Source of the DNA: a virus
Reading direction: 5' to 3' (one strand)
Length of the DNA: 40,161 nucleotides
IMG/VR virus record: IMGVR_UViG_3300034092_001342
Location: 1-40,161 of that record
A program made the translations under genes and the position numbers. This document shows, in pieces, positions 2,401 to 31,758 of the stretch; positions within the stretch are counted from its first letter, which is position 1; every line of letters begins with the position of its first letter. Under the pieces are notes generated by a model, which ran no database searches, was not told where the DNA came from, and saw nothing but the letters and a program-made list of their open reading frames with translations.

Positions 2401-3741
2401 ATGGCAAGCTCAACAGACTTAGCAGAATCTTCACAAGCTTTATTTTGTGCTTTAGCTGATTTCATCGGCATTCCTACAATTAATGGAAAATTTAAATTAA
2501 ATCCTAAAAGTGCCACGATTAATAATGTATTTGACATTGATGATGAAAGCAATAACACCTATAAATTATTTTCATCCAACTGGTCTAAAAAATATCCTCG
2601 CACATCTATTGAAAGTTTGTTTCAAAAATATGTTAAATCAGGAAAAGCTTCATTTTCAGAAATTGAAAAATTTTTGACTGGTTCTGGTGTTAAAGATAAA
2701 GTAGCTCTTGGATGGTTCAAGTCATCTATATTAATTGGTAAATATTTGGTAATTAAAATTAATACAATAAGTTCACAATTTAAATATATTCAAGATGAGG
2801 GAATAACAGCTACAAAAATATTTTATGCTCATCAAGATAATACAATTATGGACAACATACAAATTTTATTCTCTGAAGCAAATAAAAATCAAAAAGAATT
2901 ACGAGATAAAATATCAAAAAATAGTGCTCAAGTTCCTTTTGGAAATTTAAATAAATGGAGTCCGGCTGACATTTACTTATCAACAAAAAAAGCTGAAAAA
3001 GCCATTGAAGATTTAGTTAAAAATAAAAAAGGTTTAACTTTTTTAGGTAAAGACGGTTTAAATAATTTTATAAGTAATTTAATTAAAACTGGTCAATTGT
3101 TACCATTATCTTTGAAAAAAACCACAAAATCAGTCAAACTAGAAAAAGTTAACTTTGTGAGAGCAACCGAAGAGGCCGCAATAAATAAAGTTTCTTTTGG
3201 TGGATTAAGTAATTGGAGACCGTATGATGCCTCCGAACAAAAACCATCAGCAAGAGATTTAAAAGCATATCTATCAAAAGATAAAACAGACTATGTATTT
3301 TTTAGACATGATCCATCAGGAAATTCTGGAGGAGCCTTTAGAGGCGAAATACAAATTAAGGGTGCTGAAGCTAAAGCTGGTGGTTTAGGCACAGGCCAAA
3401 TTGAAGCCATATTAAATCTTTGTGATCCAAAAAAAGGAAGATTTGGTACTTTATTTAAAAACAAATTAGATACAGCAACCACCAATTTTCAAAAACAGAA
3501 AAAACCAATTAGAGAAAAATATGAAAAGGATGGAGCACCTAAAAATGGCCCCATAAGAGAAGAATATGATAGGCAAGTTGGTCAACTTAGTGCAGAATTG
3601 GTTACAAATGTTGTTATGCCATATTTAATTAAATTTCTTTCAGATGATGAGCGAGCATCTTCTTTTACGAGATGGGTATTTCAATACGCAACTTCTCGCC
3701 AAAAAAATTCTTCTAAATATGTTATAGCGAAAGGTTCATAG
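2401..3741 (+). CDS. Unknown phage protein with repeated W-x-P-x-D motif
   Basis: 446 aa, noticeably AT-richer and lysine-richer than the helicase before it. No signal peptide or membrane segment is visible. Two related segments occur: PFGNLNKWSPADIYL near residue 181 and SFGGLSNWRPYDASE near 265, both of the form FGxLxxWxPxD. A later GGAFRGEIQIKGAEAKAGG stretch (about 310-328) is glycine-rich. I do not recognise the family. It starts one base after the upstream stop and is followed by a small conserved phage gene, so it belongs to the same transcriptional unit. A structural or nucleic-acid role are both possible. Confidence 0.75.
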   Translation: MASSTDLAESSQALFCALADFIGIPTINGKFKLNPKSATINNVFDIDDESNNTYKLFSSNWSKKYPRTSIESLFQKYVKSGKASFSEIEKFLTGSGVKDKVALGWFKSSILIGKYLVIKINTISSQFKYIQDEGITATKIFYAHQDNTIMDNIQILFSEANKNQKELRDKISKNSAQVPFGNLNKWSPADIYLSTKKAEKAIEDLVKNKKGLTFLGKDGLNNFISNLIKTGQLLPLSLKKTTKSVKLEKVNFVRATEEAAINKVSFGGLSNWRPYDASEQKPSARDLKAYLSKDKTDYVFFRHDPSGNSGGAFRGEIQIKGAEAKAGGLGTGQIEAILNLCDPKKGRFGTLFKNKLDTATTNFQKQKKPIREKYEKDGAPKNGPIREEYDRQVGQLSAELVTNVVMPYLIKFLSDDERASSFTRWVFQYATSRQKNSSKYVIAKGS

Positions 3742-7101: not shown

Positions 7102-7880
7102 TGGCATCTATATCATTTCTTCATTTGGCTTCGGCTGGTAAATCAATATCAACAGAAAAAGTTGTCAGTAATATTAGACAGTATCATCCTAATGCTTATT
7201 ATTTTTTGGGATCCGATGCAGCTGATGATTTATCTAATATTGCTAAAGAATATAAATTAGATTATCATTACTTTGATGATAAGTTGGGATACCCAACACA
7301 ACCTTTTGGTTACAGAAAAGAAAAGGTATTATTGTGGTTGGAACGATTTCATTATGCCTGTGAGAATTGCAATACATCACATATCATGATGGTAGAAGAT
7401 GATGTTTGGATTAAAAAACCAATCACAGTAAAAGATGAATGGGAGATGGCTTGTCATAAGATTAGTCATGGTAATCGTTTTCCACCAGAAGTTTTAAAAA
7501 TGATGGAAGATTTTTCTGGTGTAAAACCTAAAACTGATTTCTATGGCGGTGGCGGTGGTTCAATTTATAATGTGAAAACATTTTTAAAGAACTACACAAG
7601 AATGACCGCATTGATTAATGATAAGTGGGATTACATACAAGACAATCATTATCCTACAATTGGTTGGATGGACTGTTTAATGGTCGCATATTATTTCTTT
7701 TGTGGTAAAGATTACACGGAAAATCCGTATATGACAGATACACATCATCACCAAAAAGGCTTTGATTTTGATAAGTTTGTAGAAGAACAACCTGAACATA
7801 TTGAAATCATTAACAATTATAAAAAATATTATTGGCCTAATGAAAGTGAAGTTATAACATTTAATACAGAATTAATATGA
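7101..7880 (+). CDS. Glycosyltransferase-like protein with EDD motif
   Basis: 259 aa from the ATG at 7101; an in-frame TTG at 7080 inside the epimerase gene is less likely. The N-terminal strand (ISFLHLASAG), a middle YFDDKLGYP segment and MMVEDDVW (Glu99-Asp100-Asp101) fit a GT-A type nucleotide-sugar site. A GGGGG run near residue 153 and a WMDCLM helix follow. It sits between an epimerase and an HtrL-like gene in the same cassette. I infer a glycosyltransferase, but no named family is certain. Confidence 0.65.
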   Translation: MASISFLHLASAGKSISTEKVVSNIRQYHPNAYYFLGSDAADDLSNIAKEYKLDYHYFDDKLGYPTQPFGYRKEKVLLWLERFHYACENCNTSHIMMVEDDVWIKKPITVKDEWEMACHKISHGNRFPPEVLKMMEDFSGVKPKTDFYGGGGGSIYNVKTFLKNYTRMTALINDKWDYIQDNHYPTIGWMDCLMVAYYFFCGKDYTENPYMTDTHHHQKGFDFDKFVEEQPEHIEIINNYKKYYWPNESEVITFNTELI

Positions 7881-8674
7881 ACGACATAACAATAGTTACC
7901 GCTTTCTTTGATATTGGTCGTGGTGAATGGACACCAGACAAAGGACTGCCACATTATCTACACAGAACAACCAAGACATATCTTGACCGATTTAGTCACA
8001 TGGCTAAATTGGAAAATCCAATGGTTGTTTACACATCAAAAGACATGGTCAAAGATGTGCAATTTCTTAGACAAGATAGACCCACCGAAATTCTCACGCT
8101 TGATTTTCCTAATAGTTTTCAAAAACTAAGAGATGAAATTACTAAAGTTCAAAAAGATTCTGATTATCAAGCCAAAATAAATCCCATGCAAGTAAAGAAT
8201 CCAGAATACTGGAATGCTGACTACGTTCTTGTCAATTTACTTAAATCATCTTTTGTAACGAAAGCTATGCAAACAAATTTAATAAAAACAGATTTGGTTG
8301 CTTGGTTAGATTTTGGTTATTGCCGTGAGGAATCCACCCTCAACAATGTAAAGAAATGGCAGTATCCTTTTGCCAAGGACAAGATTCATTTCTTTAATTT
8401 AAAAGATTGGAAAGAAGGCACCTATATTGAGAATGTCATTTTCAATAATGATGTTCACATTACAGGTCCTTGTATTGTTGCAGGTAAAGATATGTGGCAG
8501 ACACTAGAGCATTTGGTTCATCATAATATTGGTGAATTACTCAAAAATAATTTAATAGATGATGACCAGACTTTGTTGTTGATGTCATACTTACAAAAAC
8601 CTGAAATCTTTGAGTTGCACAGAGTTTCTGGTGATGATTGGTTTGTAGCTTTTAAGGAATATAATGAAGATTAA
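7877..8674 (+). CDS. HtrL/YibB (WlaTC)-like protein
   Basis: 265 aa. The N-terminus TIVTAFFDIGRGEW and the central VAWLDFGYCRE (about residues 142-152) are the hallmarks of the HtrL/YibB family, found in bacterial lipopolysaccharide-core and surface-sugar gene clusters and thought to be glycosyltransferase-like. It overlaps the preceding gene by 4 bp and the next by 11 bp. Its presence supports a surface-glycan theme for the cassette. Biochemical activity of this family is not established to my knowledge. Confidence 0.75.
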   Translation: MNDITIVTAFFDIGRGEWTPDKGLPHYLHRTTKTYLDRFSHMAKLENPMVVYTSKDMVKDVQFLRQDRPTEILTLDFPNSFQKLRDEITKVQKDSDYQAKINPMQVKNPEYWNADYVLVNLLKSSFVTKAMQTNLIKTDLVAWLDFGYCREESTLNNVKKWQYPFAKDKIHFFNLKDWKEGTYIENVIFNNDVHITGPCIVAGKDMWQTLEHLVHHNIGELLKNNLIDDDQTLLLMSYLQKPEIFELHRVSGDDWFVAFKEYNED

Positions 8675-10173: not shown

Positions 10174-10217
10174 AGCGACCGGCAATCAAAGTGTATTGCA
10201 AATCAGAAGGAAATTCA

Positions 10218-11408
10218 ATGTTATCATTTAAGTCATTCTTAACGGAAGAATCTGAACAAGGTTCCGAACTTAAACACATTCACCATGCGGAAGACAGACC
10301 ATTAATGCATGGTCACACAGGTTTTGAACACGCTCACGCAGCTTTGATGAAAGCTCATACACATATGACTGGTGGCCATAAGAGCACCAATCTAACAATG
10401 AAATATGATGGCTCACCATCGATTGTTTTTGGGCATCACCCTAAGAATAATAAATTCTTTGTTGCAACTAAATCTGCATTTAATAAAAATCCAAAAATCA
10501 ATCACACAGAAGCAGACATTGATAAGAATCACGGTCATTCACCTGGTCTTGCAAAAACACTCAAACACGCTCTCAAACATCTACCAAAAGTGACACCAAA
10601 AGAAGGTGTATTTCAAGGCGACTTGATGCACCATGCAGATACCAAAACACTACACGAGGGTTATCTAGCAGAAGCTAAAGGTGATGTTTCTTTCACACCA
10701 AATACCATCACATATACCGCTAAAGGTAAAGAAGCTGACAAGATTAAAAAGTCTAAAGTTGGTGTTGTGGTCCATACTCAATATAGTAATGACTTAAAAC
10801 ACAACACACCTCATGTTGATATGAGCAAGTTCAAAGAACATCCGGATGTTCATATACATGGTGCCGAACATGATACAAGTAAAGTAAAACATTCTGCTGA
10901 GAATGAAAAACACTTTCAAAAACATATGGCTGCCGCCAAAGAAATCCACGACACTCATGGACACAAGATGTACGATTCAGTTCATCCAAAGCATAGTGGA
11001 GAAGCTGGCCATCTATCAACCTACATAAACAAGACAGTAAGACATGATGAGGTTCCAAGTGTTAAAGGATTCAAAGAACACTTACATGATGTCCATGCAA
11101 AGCAGGCTGCCAAAGTTACTACCGAGAAATCTAAGTCTGAAAAGACCAAAGAAGGTGAATCACAGATTGCTCATGTTGAAAAACACAAAGCACATTATGG
11201 AAACTTATTGTCAATGCATCACCATTTGCACCAAGCTAAAAATGCTTTGGTTAAATCTTTAGAAACACACGAAGGACATTACCAACACCACATTGAAGGT
11301 AAAAAGTCTAAACCTGAAGGTTTCGTAGTTCATCACGACAATCAACCAACCAAATTAGTTAACCGTGCTGAATTTGCTAAACAAAATTTATTAAAAGTTA
11401 GAAAATAA
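10218..11408 (+). CDS. DUF6267 protein: ligase-like nucleotidyltransferase with capsid-targeting N-terminus
   Basis: 396 aa from ATG 10218, chosen over an upstream in-frame start at 10191 because AGAAGG lies 7 nt before it. The N-terminus MLSFKSFLTEE resembles the capsid-targeting peptide of T4 internal proteins, with LTE as a possible prohead-protease site. It then resembles phage DUF6267 proteins. I see motifs of the covalent nucleotidyltransferase (DNA/RNA ligase) superfamily: KYDG at residues 62-65 (motif I, Lys62), FQGDLM at 132-137 (motif III-like), GVVVHT near 186, EGFVV at 367-371 (motif IV) and KLVNR soon after (motif V). A His/Lys-rich insertion separates the halves. Ligase or capping-like activity is inferred, not shown. 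Confidence 0.8.
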   Translation: MLSFKSFLTEESEQGSELKHIHHAEDRPLMHGHTGFEHAHAALMKAHTHMTGGHKSTNLTMKYDGSPSIVFGHHPKNNKFFVATKSAFNKNPKINHTEADIDKNHGHSPGLAKTLKHALKHLPKVTPKEGVFQGDLMHHADTKTLHEGYLAEAKGDVSFTPNTITYTAKGKEADKIKKSKVGVVVHTQYSNDLKHNTPHVDMSKFKEHPDVHIHGAEHDTSKVKHSAENEKHFQKHMAAAKEIHDTHGHKMYDSVHPKHSGEAGHLSTYINKTVRHDEVPSVKGFKEHLHDVHAKQAAKVTTEKSKSEKTKEGESQIAHVEKHKAHYGNLLSMHHHLHQAKNALVKSLETHEGHYQHHIEGKKSKPEGFVVHHDNQPTKLVNRAEFAKQNLLKVRK

Positions 11409-11412
11409 AAAA

Positions 11413-12606
11413 ATGTCACTACAATTACACATCTATCGTGAAAGAGCAGGTTTACTTGAAGAAGATAAAAAAACCTTAGCTCAAAAAATTAAAGATTTTA
11501 TTGAATATTTGAAAAATCATGATGAAGATGAAGATGTTAAAAAATTACATGATGAGAATGAAGAAGATTTTAATCCTGATGAAGATGAAGAAGAAAAAAA
11601 ACTGCGTGAGGAGTTTTTACAAAGTCTAACAGAAGAAGAAAAACAAGCTAAGTTAGGTTCTAACGCTAAAGGTGTTTTACATGAATTATTGGTTGGCAAA
11701 CACCTCAATGGTGGAAAACACATGGAGAAACATCCAGACAAAGAGGGTTTGTCTCCAAAAGAAGCTCACGATAAAATTAAAAAAGTCTTACATCCACATG
11801 AATACAAAAGATTAGAAACAAAAGCCAAAAGTGCAGCTGAGAATATAAAAAAACATATTGAAAAATCTGGCCACAAAATTTCTCATGTTCACTGGACATC
11901 TCAACCAGGCGACACAAAAAGGTCGACAGGTATAGAAGCTTCACAAAAAGAAGATGCGTCTGATATTGTTGTTCATAGTCATAAAGCTGGTAAGAAAAAA
12001 TTTCATGGAGTAAGTTTAAAAGTTACAGATGGAAAAAATAAACATATTACAGCTTCAAATCCAGGCATGGAAGCAACACACGGAGGCCATCATATTATTG
12101 ATAAGCATAGAGAAGAACTTTTAAAAGCACATCCAAAATTAGTTGGTGTAAAAGGTCCAGAAAAAAGAAAAGAAATGATGAGAAATGATCCTAAAATGAA
12201 AGAAGATGTTGTAAAAAGAAATCACAAAGCTGTGGTTGATTTGGCTGCTCATGTGCATAAACAGTTAAAAAGTAAATCAAAAGAAGATTTAGTTCATCAC
12301 ATTAGGACTCATGTTTTACAATCAAATAAAACTCCTATGCAACATCACGGTCACGAACATATCAGGCACACAACATACGTTTCTGGTAAAAAAGAAGGTT
12401 CTGTAGATTTACACCATGCAATTAATCCAAGTGAACATTGGAATCACATTCTACACGACCATAAAAATATTACAACACAACACGCCGGTGGTAATGTTCA
12501 CTTTTTACACAAAGGTAAAAAGTTTGCAACTCACAGAATGAGAGTATCATCAAGTAGTGACCCACTTACAAGTTTTAAAGGTGATGGAAAGGCTCATTCA
12601 GATTAA
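11413..12606 (+). CDS. His/Lys-rich phage protein, possible PD-(D/E)XK nuclease fold
   Basis: 397 aa. An acidic N-terminal 80 residues, with a LLEED segment that could be protease-processed, is followed by a conserved-looking domain: helix AKGVLHELLVGKHLNGG with Glu91, then SDIVV with Asp184, then GVSLKV with Ser201-Leu-Lys203. Glu...Asp...S-x-K is the layout of PD-(D/E)XK nucleases. The remainder is rich in His and Lys. It lies between two proteins with capsid-targeting N-termini, so it may be packaged cargo too. The nuclease reading is an inference from spacing of a few residues. The 3' end overlaps the next ORF's upstream in-frame region, but not its chosen start. Confidence 0.65.
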   Translation: MSLQLHIYRERAGLLEEDKKTLAQKIKDFIEYLKNHDEDEDVKKLHDENEEDFNPDEDEEEKKLREEFLQSLTEEEKQAKLGSNAKGVLHELLVGKHLNGGKHMEKHPDKEGLSPKEAHDKIKKVLHPHEYKRLETKAKSAAENIKKHIEKSGHKISHVHWTSQPGDTKRSTGIEASQKEDASDIVVHSHKAGKKKFHGVSLKVTDGKNKHITASNPGMEATHGGHHIIDKHREELLKAHPKLVGVKGPEKRKEMMRNDPKMKEDVVKRNHKAVVDLAAHVHKQLKSKSKEDLVHHIRTHVLQSNKTPMQHHGHEHIRHTTYVSGKKEGSVDLHHAINPSEHWNHILHDHKNITTQHAGGNVHFLHKGKKFATHRMRVSSSSDPLTSFKGDGKAHSD

Positions 12607-12607
12607 A

Positions 12608-14416
12608 ATGAAATCATTTTTAGAACTAGTAGAAGAAACCAAACAAGGTGAGAAACACCATGTGATGACCTTTGGTCGCATGAATCCTCCTACAACTGGA
12701 CATTTGAAACTTATTCATAAAGTAAAAGAGGTTGCAGACAAACATAATGCTTCGCATTCGGTTATTGTTTCACACTCACAAGATTCTAAAAAGAACCCAT
12801 TATCCGGTGAAACTAAAGTTAAACATCTCAAAAGATACTCTCCAGGTACTCATTTTGAAAACTCTACAAAAGAGAAACCAAGTATTTTTCATCATGCAGC
12901 CGAATTACATAAAAAAGGTGTAACTCACCTTCATGTTGTTGTTGGTTCTGACCGTGTTAAAGAATTCAAAGATTCGTTAAACAAATACAATGGTGTAAAA
13001 GGTAAACACGGCCACTACGATTTCAAAAAGATTACTGTTCATTCTGCTGGCCATCGTGATCCAGACGCTGAAGGTTCTGAGGGTATGTCTGGCACCAAAA
13101 TGCGCCAACACGCTGCTTCAGGTAATTACAAAGAATTTAAAAAAGGTGTACCAGAACACGTTGCTGACAATCATGCCAAAGAACTCTATCATGATACACG
13201 CAAAGGTATGGGAATCCACGAAAATGTCAATCGTGGCCTATTCAAAGCAATATTCGTAACTGGTGGACCTGGTTCAGGTAAAGATATTGTCATCCGTGAA
13301 TCGATACCTGAGTCCCGTGCAGTAGAATTGAATTCTAATCAAGCCTTTGATTATCTTGCAGATAAACAGAAATTATCTGAAAAAACCAATGACTTCCGTA
13401 GAGAAGCCATTCGTAACCGTGGTCCACTAATCATTAATGGACCAGCAGATAGTATCGATAAAATCAATCATATCAAAGAAGAACTGGAAGATTTGGGTTA
13501 CTCAACCATGATGGTATTTGTTAATACCACCAATGAGGTAAGTCAAGAAAGAAATACCAAATTGGCTCGTATGATGGTGGAATCTATTCGGTATGATAAG
13601 TGGTCACAAGCTCAGAAAAATAAAGAGCTTTTTGCAGAATCCTTTGACCAGTTCATTCAGGTAGACAATACTGGTTCTTTGGAATCAATCGAAGAAGATA
13701 TAACTCAAACTTACCTAAATATTCATAACTTCATTGAGGGTAAAGTCTGTGGAGATATATCGTTATCATGGTTAGAAAAACATGGTAAGTTAAATATAAG
13801 TGATAATTTAATTAAGGAAGAAAAAAATGTTAAAATCAATTCTAAACTATTTGAAAATAAAGCCCGCCTCATCCAAACTGGTGTGCCCAAAGCAGCCGGA
13901 CTCGACAGCTACCCAGCCGACAACAGGCCAAACGACTCCAACGGAGATGACCTCAAATGGAACTCCAACAGCAAGCGTAAAACCTTCATCTTCCGCACCT
14001 ACAGCGAAGAAAACAAACCCACGCTCACAGTCAACCCGCAACCGAAAGAAACCAACTTCTCCAAAGACAAAGAGCAAGTAAAGAAGAAACGAATAGTAGA
14101 TGCCCCAACCGTAAGTCAAAGATTACGGAACACCGCAGGTGTGGGGCCAGAATTTGATACACGCCAGCAGGGAACAGTATATCCCATGTCCGGTCTAGGC
14201 GATGTAACATACAGAGAACAAAAAGAATTTAGTAGTTTTAGAAAAACAATTAAAGAATATAAAGGATTTCAAAATGACATTTCTATACCTGATATGGGTG
14301 TAGGTGGAACTTTGAATGGTGCGACAAATTTTGAGCCCATGCAATCTTATAAAGACGCAGAACGAAATATTGGTACACAAATAAAAATTAAAAAGAAGAA
14401 CAAACAGGAGAAATAA
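12608..14416 (+). CDS. Capsid-targeted NMNAT-like adenylyltransferase / P-loop kinase fusion
   Basis: 602 aa from ATG 12608 (MKSFLELVEE), preferred to the upstream start at 12557 because it gives the same short amphipathic N-terminus as its neighbours. Domain 1: nucleotidyltransferase with GRMNPPTTGHLKL (TxGH variant of HxGH, about residues 23-35) and SGTKMRQ (ISSTxxR-like, near 162). Domain 2: P-loop GGPGSGKD at 219-226 with a kinase-like continuation to about 390. The NMNAT-plus-kinase order is like NadR of NAD salvage, but the substrate is unproven. Domain 3 (about 410-602) is of unknown function, low-complexity at first, and encoded by unusually C-rich DNA at 13860-14200. Late region, just after the possible nuclease gene. 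Confidence 0.8.
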   Translation: MKSFLELVEETKQGEKHHVMTFGRMNPPTTGHLKLIHKVKEVADKHNASHSVIVSHSQDSKKNPLSGETKVKHLKRYSPGTHFENSTKEKPSIFHHAAELHKKGVTHLHVVVGSDRVKEFKDSLNKYNGVKGKHGHYDFKKITVHSAGHRDPDAEGSEGMSGTKMRQHAASGNYKEFKKGVPEHVADNHAKELYHDTRKGMGIHENVNRGLFKAIFVTGGPGSGKDIVIRESIPESRAVELNSNQAFDYLADKQKLSEKTNDFRREAIRNRGPLIINGPADSIDKINHIKEELEDLGYSTMMVFVNTTNEVSQERNTKLARMMVESIRYDKWSQAQKNKELFAESFDQFIQVDNTGSLESIEEDITQTYLNIHNFIEGKVCGDISLSWLEKHGKLNISDNLIKEEKNVKINSKLFENKARLIQTGVPKAAGLDSYPADNRPNDSNGDDLKWNSNSKRKTFIFRTYSEENKPTLTVNPQPKETNFSKDKEQVKKKRIVDAPTVSQRLRNTAGVGPEFDTRQQGTVYPMSGLGDVTYREQKEFSSFRKTIKEYKGFQNDISIPDMGVGGTLNGATNFEPMQSYKDAERNIGTQIKIKKKNKQEK

Positions 14417-17537: not shown

Positions 17538-18179
17538 ATGTCATCATTTTGGGGCAATACAGACCGTGCTAATAACGAACCACTCTTTCCAGAAATGAGA
17601 GAAGTTCGTGAAGTGGCCGTATTAATAACCGCCAATGCAACTGCACTTGGCACCAACGAAATTGTTTTTACAACCAGTCCAGCTGCAGCAGGTGTTGCTA
17701 ATGGAATGTATGTTTATGCAACTGCAAATAACGGATTATCAAGATTCTTTGATACATCTATTATTGATGAAAACGATATTGCTTTTAAACGCAGTAATAA
17801 TAGTGTCGCAATTGTAAGAACTGGTACCTTTATAAACAGCACTTCACAGTCAGCTGTTGTTAAGTTTGCAAACAACACGATTGCACCAATTGCCGCTGGC
17901 CAAACCATAGTGTTCGCTACAGCTGTTAATCACGGCACAAATACAGCTGCACGATTTGCTAACGACACCATTATGGTAACAGCTACTCGTTTAGCAAATT
18001 CTTTGATTGCTGGTGCAAACAATGGTATTCATCAAGGATGGAATCGTTTCACATATAAAGTGAACAATGATGGTACAAAACGTCAACTAAGAGAAACATT
18101 AGTTGTTCTTGCAGCTCCAACTGCATTGAACGTAAGTTCTGGCAATACAAGCACAAACTCCGTATTCCAAGGCGTTTAA
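17538..18179 (+). CDS. Virion structural protein (likely decoration or head protein)
   Basis: 213 aa, rich in Ala, Asn, Thr and Val with predicted beta strands and no charged linkers, unlike the flanking genes. The N-terminus MSSFWGNTDRANNEP and the GWNRFTYKVNNDGTKRQLRETLVVLA segment near the C-terminus resemble small structural proteins of T4-like aquatic phages. A strong AAGGAG site sits 8 nt upstream and a late box at 17496, consistent with high late expression. The exact virion position is unknown. Confidence 0.7.
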   Translation: MSSFWGNTDRANNEPLFPEMREVREVAVLITANATALGTNEIVFTTSPAAAGVANGMYVYATANNGLSRFFDTSIIDENDIAFKRSNNSVAIVRTGTFINSTSQSAVVKFANNTIAPIAAGQTIVFATAVNHGTNTAARFANDTIMVTATRLANSLIAGANNGIHQGWNRFTYKVNNDGTKRQLRETLVVLAAPTALNVSSGNTSTNSVFQGV

Positions 18180-18640
18180 TGTTAGGTTTTAAACAGTTTG
18201 TTGTGGAAGATAGGGACTTCACAATCCCTGTCGCACACATTGAAAAAAGTGGTTCAAACTTGGCGGACAAAATAACTCGCCAAGAATTGAACCGCAACCT
18301 AGCTTTGGCTGTAAATGGCAACTACATGAATCCTTACTCCGCTTGGATTCGTTCTAGTAAAGTTTTGTCCTTGTTTGGTATCACTCTCCCCAAAGTGGTG
18401 TTTCATGACTTAGAAGTTGGTGAAGAAATTGTCCATATAGACCAATTCGGTGCTCGCTCGGGTGCCGAATTGAATGGCACAGTAGAGAAACTGAATAATT
18501 TAGATGAAGTTCAACATTACTTTTATTTTTCTTACGAAATGAATGATAACGGTTACTATGATATTGAAGCAATGATTTCTGATGAAAATGAGCTAGATGA
18601 TTTTCTTTCTTCAGAGGAACCAGACATAGAAGAAGAATAA
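18179..18640 (+). CDS. Capsid-targeted small protein, function unknown
   Basis: 153 aa. MLGFKQFVVEDRDF matches the capsid-targeting style N-terminus seen nearby, with VVE at the expected protease position. The body is soluble, with a hydrophobic VVFHDLEVGEEIVHIDQFG middle and a very acidic C-terminus (SSEEPDIEEE). It joins both neighbours through TAATG junctions. No family recognised. Confidence 0.7.
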   Translation: MLGFKQFVVEDRDFTIPVAHIEKSGSNLADKITRQELNRNLALAVNGNYMNPYSAWIRSSKVLSLFGITLPKVVFHDLEVGEEIVHIDQFGARSGAELNGTVEKLNNLDEVQHYFYFSYEMNDNGYYDIEAMISDENELDDFLSSEEPDIEEE

Positions 18641-19026
18641 TGATTGATGATTTAAATGATGATAATTTTTTGATATATGCAATGAAGTGTTACAACGCAC
18701 CACATTGTATTATGTCTGAATTTGAAAACGATATTAAAAGAACAAAATATTTAAAGCGTTTGTTCCGCAGATATAAAATTACTAAATCTCTTAAAGAGAG
18801 ATTAATATTAAATCATATTATTTTATTGAATAATGTTTTTGGTCCAAAACACACGGCAAGAATACTATTCTATAAAATAGACGAGAGAGATTATGATATA
18901 CTTAAAACTTTCTTGGCTTATTTGAATATTGTACCAGAAATGATTTACGGTATTAAAGGTAAAAACATTTCAGTCACAGATATACCAATAGATGTTAATG
19001 TCGCAGAGATATTGAGGCAAATATGA
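18640..19026 (+). CDS. Conserved T4-like phage protein (DUF7207-like)
   Basis: 128 aa. AMKCYNAPHCIMSEFENDIKR, then RLFRRYK, LKERLILNHIILLNNVFG and LFYKIDERDYDILKTFLAYLN form a pattern I associate with a conserved hypothetical protein of T4-like aquatic phages. It is mostly helical with no membrane segment. Function unknown; its conserved place among head-related genes suggests a late role. The stop overlaps the next ATG (ATGA). Confidence 0.7.
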   Translation: MIDDLNDDNFLIYAMKCYNAPHCIMSEFENDIKRTKYLKRLFRRYKITKSLKERLILNHIILLNNVFGPKHTARILFYKIDERDYDILKTFLAYLNIVPEMIYGIKGKNISVTDIPIDVNVAEILRQI

Positions 19027-19343
19027 AAACTTTCAAACAATTTGTATCAGAAGAATCCTTAGATGAAAAATCTCCAGCTTGGCAACGAGCTGCGGGTAAA
19101 GATCCAGAAGGTGGTTTAAACCGTAAAGGTATTGCTTCATATCGTAGAGAAAATCCAGGTTCTAAATTATCAATGGCTGTTACAACAAAGCCATCTAAAT
19201 TAAAACCGGGTTCTAAAGCAGCCAATCGTAGAAAATCATTTTGTGCTAGAATGGGTGGCATGAAGAAACGATTGACATCTGCTAAGACAGCAAACGATCC
19301 TGATAGCCGTATCAACAAAGCACTAAGAAAGTGGAACTGTTAA
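19023..19343 (+). CDS. Capsid-targeted DUF6321 basic protein
   Basis: 106 aa. MKTFKQFVSEESLDE is the clearest capsid-targeting type N-terminus in the window (compare T4 IPIII, MKTYQEFIAE), with VSE|E as a likely cut. The rest matches the DUF6321 pattern: SPAWQRAAGKDPEGGLNRKG, SYRRENPGS, RRKSFCARMGGMKKR, DPDSRINKALRKWNC. It is strongly basic, so it may bind packaged DNA; that is inference. Confidence 0.8.
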   Translation: MKTFKQFVSEESLDEKSPAWQRAAGKDPEGGLNRKGIASYRRENPGSKLSMAVTTKPSKLKPGSKAANRRKSFCARMGGMKKRLTSAKTANDPDSRINKALRKWNC

Positions 19344-19843
19344 TGAAATCATTTAAACAGTATCTTGGTGAAGATTTACGCCAATGGTTTAAACAAAAGT
19401 GGGTTCGCATGGACACCAAAGGTAATATCAAAGGTGATTGTGCAAGAGAACCAGGTGAAGGTAAACCAAAATGCTTACCTCAGGCCAAAGCACACGCAAT
19501 TGGTAAAGAAGCTCGTGCTAGCGCTGCTCAAAGAAAGCGTAGAGAGGATCCTAATCCAGAACGCCGTGGTGCACCAATCAATGTAAAGACCGAAGAAGTT
19601 GATGAAGCTTGTTGGACAGGATACACAGCAAAAGGTATGAAGAAAAAAGGCAACCGCATGGTGCCAAATTGTGTTAAAGAAGATGGTGCTATGGGTGGTT
19701 CTGCCGGTCCAACGAATGTTGTAAGTAGTGGTGCAATTGCTGGTAGTGGACTGCCTAAAGGTGGAGAACCAGGTGTTTATTTACCTCGTAGAAAGAAAAG
19801 TCCTGTTATGATGTCTATCAGGAGAAAATCTCCAAAGGCTTAA
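19343..19843 (+). CDS. Capsid-targeted DUF5872 basic protein
   Basis: 166 aa from ATG 19343, chosen over an in-frame upstream start because MKSFKQYLGEDL has the family N-terminus and overlaps the preceding stop. Residues about 12-75 match the DUF5872 pattern: DLRQWFKQKWVRMD, GDCAREPGEGKPKCLPQAKAHAIGK, RKRREDPNPERRG. It is basic and Gly-rich at the C-terminus. Like its neighbour, it looks like a small DNA-facing internal head protein. Confidence 0.78.
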   Translation: MKSFKQYLGEDLRQWFKQKWVRMDTKGNIKGDCAREPGEGKPKCLPQAKAHAIGKEARASAAQRKRREDPNPERRGAPINVKTEEVDEACWTGYTAKGMKKKGNRMVPNCVKEDGAMGGSAGPTNVVSSGAIAGSGLPKGGEPGVYLPRRKKSPVMMSIRRKSPKA

Positions 19844-30115: not shown

Positions 30116-30964
30116 ATGATTCTCGTTGATTTAAATCAAGTATTACTGTCTGGCCTCATGGCACAGATATCCAGTCAAAAGGGTGTTAAACTAGATGAAA
30201 GTCTGGTTCGCCACATGATTCTAAATATTCTCCGTATGCACATTCGTAATTTTCGTAAAGATTATGGTGATGTTGTATTATGTTGTGATAATCGTAAATA
30301 TTGGCGCAAAGAATTTTTCCCGTTCTATAAAGCTGGTCGTAAAAAGACCAGAGAAAAGTCTGATTTAGATTGGCATATGATTTTTGATATGTTAGCCAAA
30401 TTTAAATCTGAACTGCGTGAAAACTTTCCATACAAAGTAATTGATGTTGAGGGTGCTGAAGCAGATGATATCATTGGTACACTTGTACCAATTTATTCGG
30501 CTCATGAGAAGATTTTGATTCTATCAAGTGATGGAGATTTTTTACAATTACAACATTATGGTAGTAATGTAAAACAATATAATCCGGCACAAAAGAAATT
30601 TGTTAAATCTGATAATCCATCTTTAGAATTAAAAGAGAAGATTATTCGTGGTGATAAAGGTGATGGTATTCCAAATATGTTCTCACCATCTGATTGCTTT
30701 GTCCGTGACTTACGACAGAAACCTATTACCAAGAGTGTATTGGATAAGTATCTTAAAGAAGATGTGGTTGACTATAGTGAAACTGATAAGGCCAACTATT
30801 CCAGAAATGCCACACTCATTGACCTGTCTTTAATACCGACCGATATCAAAGAAAAAATTATAAATACATATAATGAAGCAAAACCGGCATCTCGCCAAAA
30901 ACTATTAAATTATTTTATTGAAAACAAACTAAAGAATTTAATGGACGTTATTGAGGAATTTTAA
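30116..30964 (+). CDS. rnh: RNase H / 5'-3' exonuclease (FEN family, T4 Rnh-like)
   Basis: 282 aa. Acidic metal-site residues in order: Asp4 (LVDLNQ), Asp in CCDNRKYWRKEFF, GAEADD (about 116-121), SSDGDF (about 139-144) and GDKGDGIPNM (about 180-189). In T4 this enzyme removes RNA primers from Okazaki fragments and acts as a 5' exonuclease. Length close to the T4 protein. Weak SD only. Confidence 0.9.
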   Translation: MILVDLNQVLLSGLMAQISSQKGVKLDESLVRHMILNILRMHIRNFRKDYGDVVLCCDNRKYWRKEFFPFYKAGRKKTREKSDLDWHMIFDMLAKFKSELRENFPYKVIDVEGAEADDIIGTLVPIYSAHEKILILSSDGDFLQLQHYGSNVKQYNPAQKKFVKSDNPSLELKEKIIRGDKGDGIPNMFSPSDCFVRDLRQKPITKSVLDKYLKEDVVDYSETDKANYSRNATLIDLSLIPTDIKEKIINTYNEAKPASRQKLLNYFIENKLKNLMDVIEEF

Positions 30965-31386
30965 TGAAAAATATCTATGAAGTATTTGATGAATTTGAAG
31001 CTGTAACCACTAAAAAAGAACGAATGTTAGTAATTGAAAAGAATCTATCAAAGACCTTGGTAGATGTGTTACAATTCACATTTCATCCGGAGTGTAAATG
31101 GAAAATTAAAGAAATGCCAGAGAACTATAAAATTCCTGATACAAAACCAGGAATATCTCGATGCCAACTTTCCACCGAAATTAGAAAGTTGTATCTTTTC
31201 CAAGAAGGAAATCCTGAAGCTGAAAAATTATCTCCAAGAAAACAAAACGAACTATTAATTCAACTTTTAGAATCAATAGAACCTCGTGAAGCTGAAGTTA
31301 TTATTGGTATCTTTAAAAAAGACCAAGGCGTGAAAGGTTTGACATATAATTTTGTTAAAGAGGCGTTCCCTAATCTTTTACCCTAA
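30964..31386 (+). CDS. DUF6433 protein
   Basis: 140 aa. Start MKNIYEVFDEFEAVTTKKER, then a LQFTFHP segment and the end AEVIIGIFKKDQGVKGLTYNFVKEAFPNLLP fit the DUF6433 family, widespread in T4-like phages of aquatic bacteria. Helical, soluble, function unknown. TAATG from RNase H, which fits a replication-related role. Confidence 0.8.
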   Translation: MKNIYEVFDEFEAVTTKKERMLVIEKNLSKTLVDVLQFTFHPECKWKIKEMPENYKIPDTKPGISRCQLSTEIRKLYLFQEGNPEAEKLSPRKQNELLIQLLESIEPREAEVIIGIFKKDQGVKGLTYNFVKEAFPNLLP

Positions 31387-31758
31387 ATGCACGACAAAGA
31401 ACGAATTATCGTAACAGCTGGTGAATTCGATCCGTTAGATTCTAACGATTTACGCTTTCTCCAACGGTGCAGAAGAAAAGGTGATTGGTTGGTCGTGGGA
31501 GTTCATTCAGATTGGTGGATGGTCTATGCTCTTGGTGGGTTTACTCATAATTATAATACTCGCCGAGAGATTGTTGAAAATATAAGATGTGTCGGTGAAG
31601 TATTCTCATTCAATGATTCTGATGGTACAGTCTGCCAACTACTTAAAATAGTAAAAATTTGTTATCCACATTCCGACATCACCTATGTGTCAAATATGGA
31701 TATGCATAATATGCCTGAAACTAAAATTAGAGGCATAACTTTTGAAACGATGAAATAG
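31387..31758 (+). CDS. Degenerate nucleotidyltransferase-like protein
   Basis: 123 aa, the length of the glycerol-3-phosphate cytidylyltransferase fold. TAGEFDPLDSNDLRFL corresponds to the T-G-x-F-D-x-x-H-x-G-H nucleotide site, but both catalytic histidines are replaced (SND). The C-terminal METKIRGITFE region also only faintly matches the ISSTxxR motif. Likely an inactive relative with a binding or regulatory role, or a divergent enzyme. Confidence 0.6.
   Translation: MHDKERIIVTAGEFDPLDSNDLRFLQRCRRKGDWLVVGVHSDWWMVYALGGFTHNYNTRREIVENIRCVGEVFSFNDSDGTVCQLLKIVKICYPHSDITYVSNMDMHNMPETKIRGITFETMK

Follow-up and report, generated by a model that had tools for sequence, protein, structure and literature searches.

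The ligase/capping superfamily of covalent nucleotidyltransferases includes DNA ligases, RNA ligases and mRNA capping enzymes. An OB domain with motif VI is used by DNA ligases and capping enzymes, and RNA ligases seal ends without one. In cyanomyoviruses, homologues of g30 were not found and an unidentified distant homologue was left open (PMC2984593); jumbo phages of the cyanophage group have no known DNA ligase, but a stand-alone ligase DNA-binding domain, AAX44695.1, was described (PMC7824862). Here we describe a DUF6267 protein encoded at positions 10218 to 11408 of virus record IMGVR_UViG_3300034092_001342, whose whole 40,161 bases were analysed and are referred to as the window. On balance, we think it probable that DUF6267 is an unrecognised, divergent family of this superfamily which acts by the mechanism proposed below.

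The motifs of T4 RNA ligase 1 (Rnl1, PF09511), namely KEDG, FKSKGS and EGYVAVMKDGSHFKIKSD, parallel KWDG, FVGTKSVF and EGFVA...KLVDR of DUF6267, in register, and an OB domain is absent in both. DUF6267 differs in that it lacks the second motif V Lys, has a helical domain before motif IV and no domain after motif V, and does not reach the PF09511 profile cut-off. T4 RNA ligase 2 (Rnl2) and the RNA editing ligase (PF09414) share the predicted nucleotidyltransferase core and are both among the fold matches listed; however, T4 Rnl2 has KxHG, the C-terminus is different and there is no comparable helical insertion. DNA ligases, which make up the majority of the fold matches listed, share KxDG, EG and the motif V Lys, but DUF6267 has no OB domain, motif VI or fused DNA-binding domain. 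The mRNA capping guanylyltransferases, also among the fold matches listed, share the predicted core and KxDG, but they differ from DUF6267 in their OB domain, and the carrier here is a phage of bacteria.

Identification and distribution of the DUF6267 gene

10218..11408, + strand: DUF6267 protein, 396 amino acids, divergent covalent-nucleotidyltransferase-like (PF19782 match, AlphaFold2 model, short-form fold search)
10207..10211, + strand: Shine-Dalgarno-like AAGGA, upstream of the ATG at 10218

The identity of this gene, as given in a preliminary description made from the sequence alone, was borne out by a match to Pfam DUF6267 (PF19782) with an E value of 2.1e-95 and 320.7 bits against a cut-off of 27. 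The protein corresponds to PHROG 455, which has no assigned function, and no mention of DUF6267 was found in the literature searched. It has an isoelectric point (pI) of 9.3 and contains 13% His and 14% Lys. Using tblastn, DUF6267 was located in 463 phage records, nearly all of them cyanophages and related Kyanoviridae and none above 60% identity, and many environmental contigs also carry it. Matches in bacterial genomes comprised 36 contigs, mostly metagenome-assembled or single-cell genomes, several of which seem, from their length and title, to be phage-derived. DUF6267 was absent from every control genome scanned, and a scan started from a distant Vibrio member gave no matches.

Conserved motifs

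10401..10412, + strand: motif I, K62-Y-D-G65, with Lys62 predicted to be nucleotidylated (K, D and G invariant)
10455..10481, + strand: motif Ia-like FFVATKSAF, K85 invariant, opposite FKSKGS of T4 Rnl1 in the alignment
10611..10628, + strand: motif III, F132-Q-G-D-L-M137, D135 replacing Glu (conservation; strand 131-139 in the model)
10758..10784, + strand: motif IIIa-like VGVVVHTQY (G182-V-V-V-H-T187), H186 invariant (conservation; strand 181-189 in the model)
10863..11282, + strand: helical insertion between IIIa and IV, N271 and K341 invariant (alignment, model)
11316..11330, + strand: motif IV, E367-G-F-V-V371 (conservation)
11352..11366, + strand: motif V, K379-L-V-N-R383, second Lys of KxK absent (conservation)

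Motifs I, III, IIIa, IV and V had been read in superfamily order in the preliminary description, and all are present at exactly the residues it named. Their conservation was followed in sets of 16 diverse members, 59 members, 63 members including short forms and 211 distinct homologues, the most divergent of which share about 30% identity. The same residues were kept in all four sets. Among the 211 homologues, K62/D64/G65, K85, Q133, D135 and H186 were invariant in all 210 aligned rows, as were E367/G368/K379 (198/198) and R383 (197/197) in the rows aligned there. Loss of conservation at Lys62, Asp64 or Glu367 had been named as evidence that would speak against the assignment; all three are invariant across the family. 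The consensus reads TVKWDGAPAIV...FFVGTKSVFNK...QGDL...HTxY...PEGFVA...KLVDRxEFS. When residue labels were permuted among the invariant columns, KxDG, an acidic residue, EG and K fell in the ligase order once in 100,000 permutations. Since these residues are invariant wherever they align among the 211 distinct homologues, the motifs did not arise by chance in a single sequence.

The spacing from H186 to E367 is 181 residues in the window protein compared with 132 in a short form (L259). Of the His/Lys-rich insertion claimed between IIIa and IV, the insertion itself is real and helical (residues ~216-355), but the His richness is a trait of the window lineage and not of the family.

Predicted fold and comparison with ligase families

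AlphaFold2 modelled the window protein (the long form) with a pLDDT of 90.5 and a pTM of 0.89, and a natural short form of 298 amino acids with a pLDDT of 92.8. The order of elements in the models is strand, K62, strand, strand (Ia), helices, strand (III), strand (IIIa), insert, EG, strand (IV) and strand (V). Motif I thus follows the first strand and Ia the third, III and IIIa lie on strands, and IV and V occupy the last two; the elements that bear the motifs are ligase-like. Both models stop one helix past motif V, and therefore the OB domain with motif VI is absent.

A Foldseek search of the PDB with the long form gave no significant match; the 50 matches listed held 5 ligase chains amid helical-bundle noise. 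This weak result arises because the inserted helical domain dominates the matches, and the natural short form was therefore used as the query. In this search 40 of the 50 matches listed were DNA ligases, RNA ligases or capping enzymes, and the branches among them include LIG1, LIG3, LIG4, archaeal ligases, the NAD+ ligase, Naegleria Rnl, REL1, T4 Rnl2, an archaeal Rnl and capping enzymes. A fold unrelated to nucleotidyltransferases would have contradicted the preliminary description; the fold predicted for the short form instead retrieves ligases and capping enzymes. Since the matches are individually weak and many of the matched chains are copies of one human ligase, the argument lies in the number of distinct superfamily branches and not in the scores. 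Sequence searches of the PDB, using the window protein or the 16-member profile, returned coiled-coil and helical noise only.

At the level of sequence, the best match to RNA_lig_T4_1 (PF09511) had an E value of 0.017, in one of 59 DUF6267 members. Neither PF01068 nor PF01653 was among the family matches listed for DUF6267 members (E<=10), nor did the PF09414 (T4 Rnl2) profile match any member. Profile-profile comparison with the T4 Rnl1 family scored 25.2, a value reached by 1 of 250 column-shuffled controls (mean 15.3, standard deviation 2.7), at a Prob of 2.7%; a permissive alignment of the two lines up motifs I, Ia, IV and V. Comparison by hhalign with Rnl2 and LigD-type ligases remained at noise level.

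Several observations weigh against placing DUF6267 in the superfamily. No member scores above any ligase-family profile cut-off, motif V has a single Lys (K379) and the invariant R383 instead of KxK, and motif III has Asp in place of Glu. In addition, the superfamily matches of the short form are individually weak (E 0.09-1.6, with no PDB match below E 0.09), and their TM-scores are low, at or below 0.26 by query length among those listed. By sequence profiles, DUF6267 does not belong to any named ligase family. The missing OB domain, the single motif V Lys and the helical domain between IIIa and IV show that it is neither a complete DNA ligase nor a complete capping enzyme. Thus, of the 'full' ligase/capping nucleotidyltransferase proposed earlier, the nucleotidyltransferase core is supported (invariant K62/D64/E367, predicted short-form fold), while the word 'full' is not (no OB domain or motif VI, one motif V Lys). 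We are highly confident that DUF6267 adopts the superfamily fold, and it is likely to be a catalytically active covalent nucleotidyltransferase.

Proposed mechanism

We propose a lysyl-nucleoside monophosphate intermediate that forms when Lys62 attacks a nucleotide cofactor, ATP or another, at its alpha-phosphate; K85, D135, E367, K379 and R383 would assist this step. The nucleotide would be passed to a 5'-phosphate end, which would then be sealed to a 3'-OH in the manner of RNA ligases, which need no OB domain. The substrate is likely to be recognised by the helical domain inserted between IIIa and IV. The balance leans slightly towards polynucleotide end-sealing of this kind. In the window lineage, the N-terminal MLSFKSFLTE would address DUF6267 to the prohead, where the prohead protease may cut it after E10. 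The protein would then be ejected together with the genome, which would allow it to work on broken nucleic acid immediately. It may do so together with the nucleotidylyltransferase/kinase whose gene is the second one downstream and which would be packaged as well.

Predicted capsid targeting

In T4 IPIII, residues 4 and 7 function in targeting and residues 8 and 10 in processing (PMC9026906). A capsid-targeting sequence (CTS) was defined by F/Y4, F7, I/L8 and E10 at the N-terminus.

10218..10247, + strand: CTS MLSFKSFLTE of the DUF6267 protein (F4, F7, L8, E10 by the T4 IPIII rule; rule tested in S-CREM2)
18179-18640: small protein with CTS start MLGFKQFVVE
19023-19343: small protein with CTS start MKTFKQFVSE, PHROG 727 and relatives
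19343-19843: small protein with CTS start MKSFKQYLGE

The window starts at 12608, 18179, 19023 and 19343 also fit the CTS, and the three small proteins are, from their N-termini, likely to be additional head-packaged proteins. The rule was tested against the published virion proteome of S-CREM2 (PMC10665884), for genes within the genome stretches examined. All 5 tagged proteins (gp6 S-adenosylmethionine hydrolase, gp13, gp14 kinase, gp136 and gp154) were present in the proteome, and none of the 63 undetected proteins was tagged (Fisher p 0.0024). The S-CREM2 DUF6267 protein, gp87, is untagged and was not detected in this proteome. Of the 76 DUF6267 proteins placed on a tree, 39 carry the tag, whose distribution requires about 10 changes; tagged members are His-rich (11% vs 2%), a difference confounded by relatedness. 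The neighbour family T4-GC190, reported from S-SM1 virions (PMC3037559), has a Syn33 member that starts MKKFSAFLTEAE.

Since the untagged gp87 was not detected, capsid carriage belongs to lineages and not to the DUF6267 family. From the tags, the window phage probably packages its DUF6267 protein and many relatives do not. The earlier claim that DUF6267 is carried in the capsid therefore survives for the window lineage, on the basis of its CTS, but a virion role for the whole family was rejected, as many members are untagged and gp87 is absent from its virion proteome. The likeness to the T4 internal head proteins (IPI-IPIII, Alt) lies in an N-terminal CTS with the IPIII residue rule; however, known T4 cargo consists of small basic proteins or an ADP-ribosyltransferase, whereas here it would be a ligase-like nucleotidyltransferase.

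Gene neighbourhood

11413..12606, + strand: 397-amino-acid protein, His/Lys-rich, no family; SDIVV...GVSLK PD-(D/E)XK-like by eye only
12608..14416, + strand: CTS MKSFLELVEE, HxGH nucleotidylyltransferase (PF01467) and P-loop kinase (Zeta/AAA_33-like)
2401-3741: PHROG 1462 protein, NKWxPADI...SLKK

In 236 of 313 loci, DUF6267 has an HxGH nucleotidylyltransferase gene at most three genes downstream or fused to it (S-PM2), and in many cyanophages DUF6267 is near gp43, uvsX and gp41. A PHROG 1462 homologue is directly upstream of DUF6267 in P-HM2 and P-HM1. One might guess at a nuclease role for this family, possibly PD-(D/E)XK-like; the PD-(D/E)XK reading of the DUF6267 neighbours comes from residues seen by eye, and profile support for it was not found. 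Elsewhere in the window, 1290-2399 encodes a protein of PHROG 19197 with a DruA-like, Druantia-type domain on a phage (Pfam DruA E 1.5e-8; PADLOC DruA1 E 7.6e-7). Upstream of DUF6267, with glycosyltransferase-like genes around it, 7877-8674 encodes a member of the HtrL_YibB family (E 1.4e-57).

DUF6433 and alternative explanations

30116..30964, + strand: T4-type RNase H (5'-3' exonuclease; PF02739 and PF09293)
30964..31386, + strand: DUF6433, proposed stand-alone ligase DNA-binding domain (PF20025 E 2e-14; PF04675 only E 0.03)
L495:41930-42433 (S-CREM2) and L455:38440-39063: DUF6433 genes elsewhere

AAX44695.1 (P-SSM2), the stand-alone DNA-binding domain mentioned above, belongs to DUF6433. 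The S-CREM2 DUF6433 protein is annotated 'DNA ligase' though it has 167 amino acids and matches DUF6433 only. Directly after DUF6433, the window has a second small HxGH nucleotidylyltransferase-like gene (31387-31758; PF01467 E 3e-4).

We scanned 21 DUF6267 records, 4 of which are possibly incomplete contigs, with the profiles PF01068, PF01653, PF09414 and PF09511, and 17 of the 21 had no DNA or RNA ligase match. S-CRM01 and G004 carry DUF6267 and a DNA ligase match, while XG4 (a Pseudoalteromonas phage) and Vibrio phage 2.275.O have, in addition to DUF6267, a DNA ligase together with RNA ligases of the Rnl1 and Rnl2 types; T4 has all three ligase types and no DUF6267. Because XG4 and Vibrio 2.275 hold all three types, simple replacement of ligases by DUF6267 was rejected as a rule.

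DUF6433 and DUF6267 occur together in 20 of 22 records, and DUF6433 follows RNase H in both the window and S-CREM2, which makes a split ligase conceivable. In its full form this explanation holds that DUF6267 is the catalytic half of a replicative DNA ligase in T4-like cyanophages and DUF6433 binds DNA, the two together sealing Okazaki fragments. It would fit the lack of g30 homologues in cyanomyoviruses (PMC2984593), the description of DUF6433 as a stand-alone ligase domain (PMC7824862) and the proximity of DUF6267 to gp43, uvsX and gp41. We nevertheless find it doubtful. The two genes lie about 20 kb apart in the window, and shared ancestry accounts for their co-occurrence equally well; DUF6433 also matches Acinetobacter and Caulobacter phages, where tblastn found no DUF6267. 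Furthermore, DUF6267 has no OB domain, it would be strange to load a replicative ligase into the virion, a DNA ligase and the two T4-type RNA ligases accompany DUF6267 in XG4 and Vibrio 2.275, and the host NAD+ ligase could suffice.

Another alternative is an active covalent nucleotidyltransferase that is no ligase and would transfer its nucleotide to a protein, a small molecule or the 5' end of an RNA; it might, for instance, serve nucleotide/NAD metabolism alongside the linked HxGH nucleotidylyltransferase/kinase. The capping enzymes among the fold matches listed and the frequent HxGH linkage, with some fusion, point in this direction, but there is no OB domain for capping, the text of motifs IV and V is nearest to Rnl1 and the linkage names no substrate, so that we consider it unlikely. 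It is very improbable that DUF6267 is a catalytically dead nucleotidyltransferase fold retained as a basic protein inside the head that binds packaged DNA; the CTS, pI and His/Lys content of the window lineage would suit such a role, but all putative catalytic residues are invariant, short untagged members included, and one untagged member (gp87) was not detected in its virion. We give even less credence to a chance resemblance of motifs on an unrelated fold. It would agree with the lack of any individually significant structure or profile match, but the motif order and the concentration of listed fold matches in one superfamily are hard to obtain by chance.

Significance

DUF6267 had no assigned function despite its presence in 463 phage records, mostly of T4-like cyanophages. 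Its probable place among the covalent nucleotidyltransferases makes it a candidate for the ligase reportedly missing from these phages, and a concrete one for the distant homologue that, as the literature asks, may have been overlooked in cyanomyoviruses. The most specific version, in which DUF6267 is this missing polynucleotide ligase, minimal, with a helical insert, working with the stand-alone DUF6433 domain in most lineages and capsid-targeted in some including that of the window, where the ligase would reach the cell along with the genome, is a speculation to which we attach low probability. The CTS rule offers a simple sequence predictor of injected proteins in Kyanoviridae, and a ligase-like enzyme in the head would be an unusual cargo for a T4-type phage.
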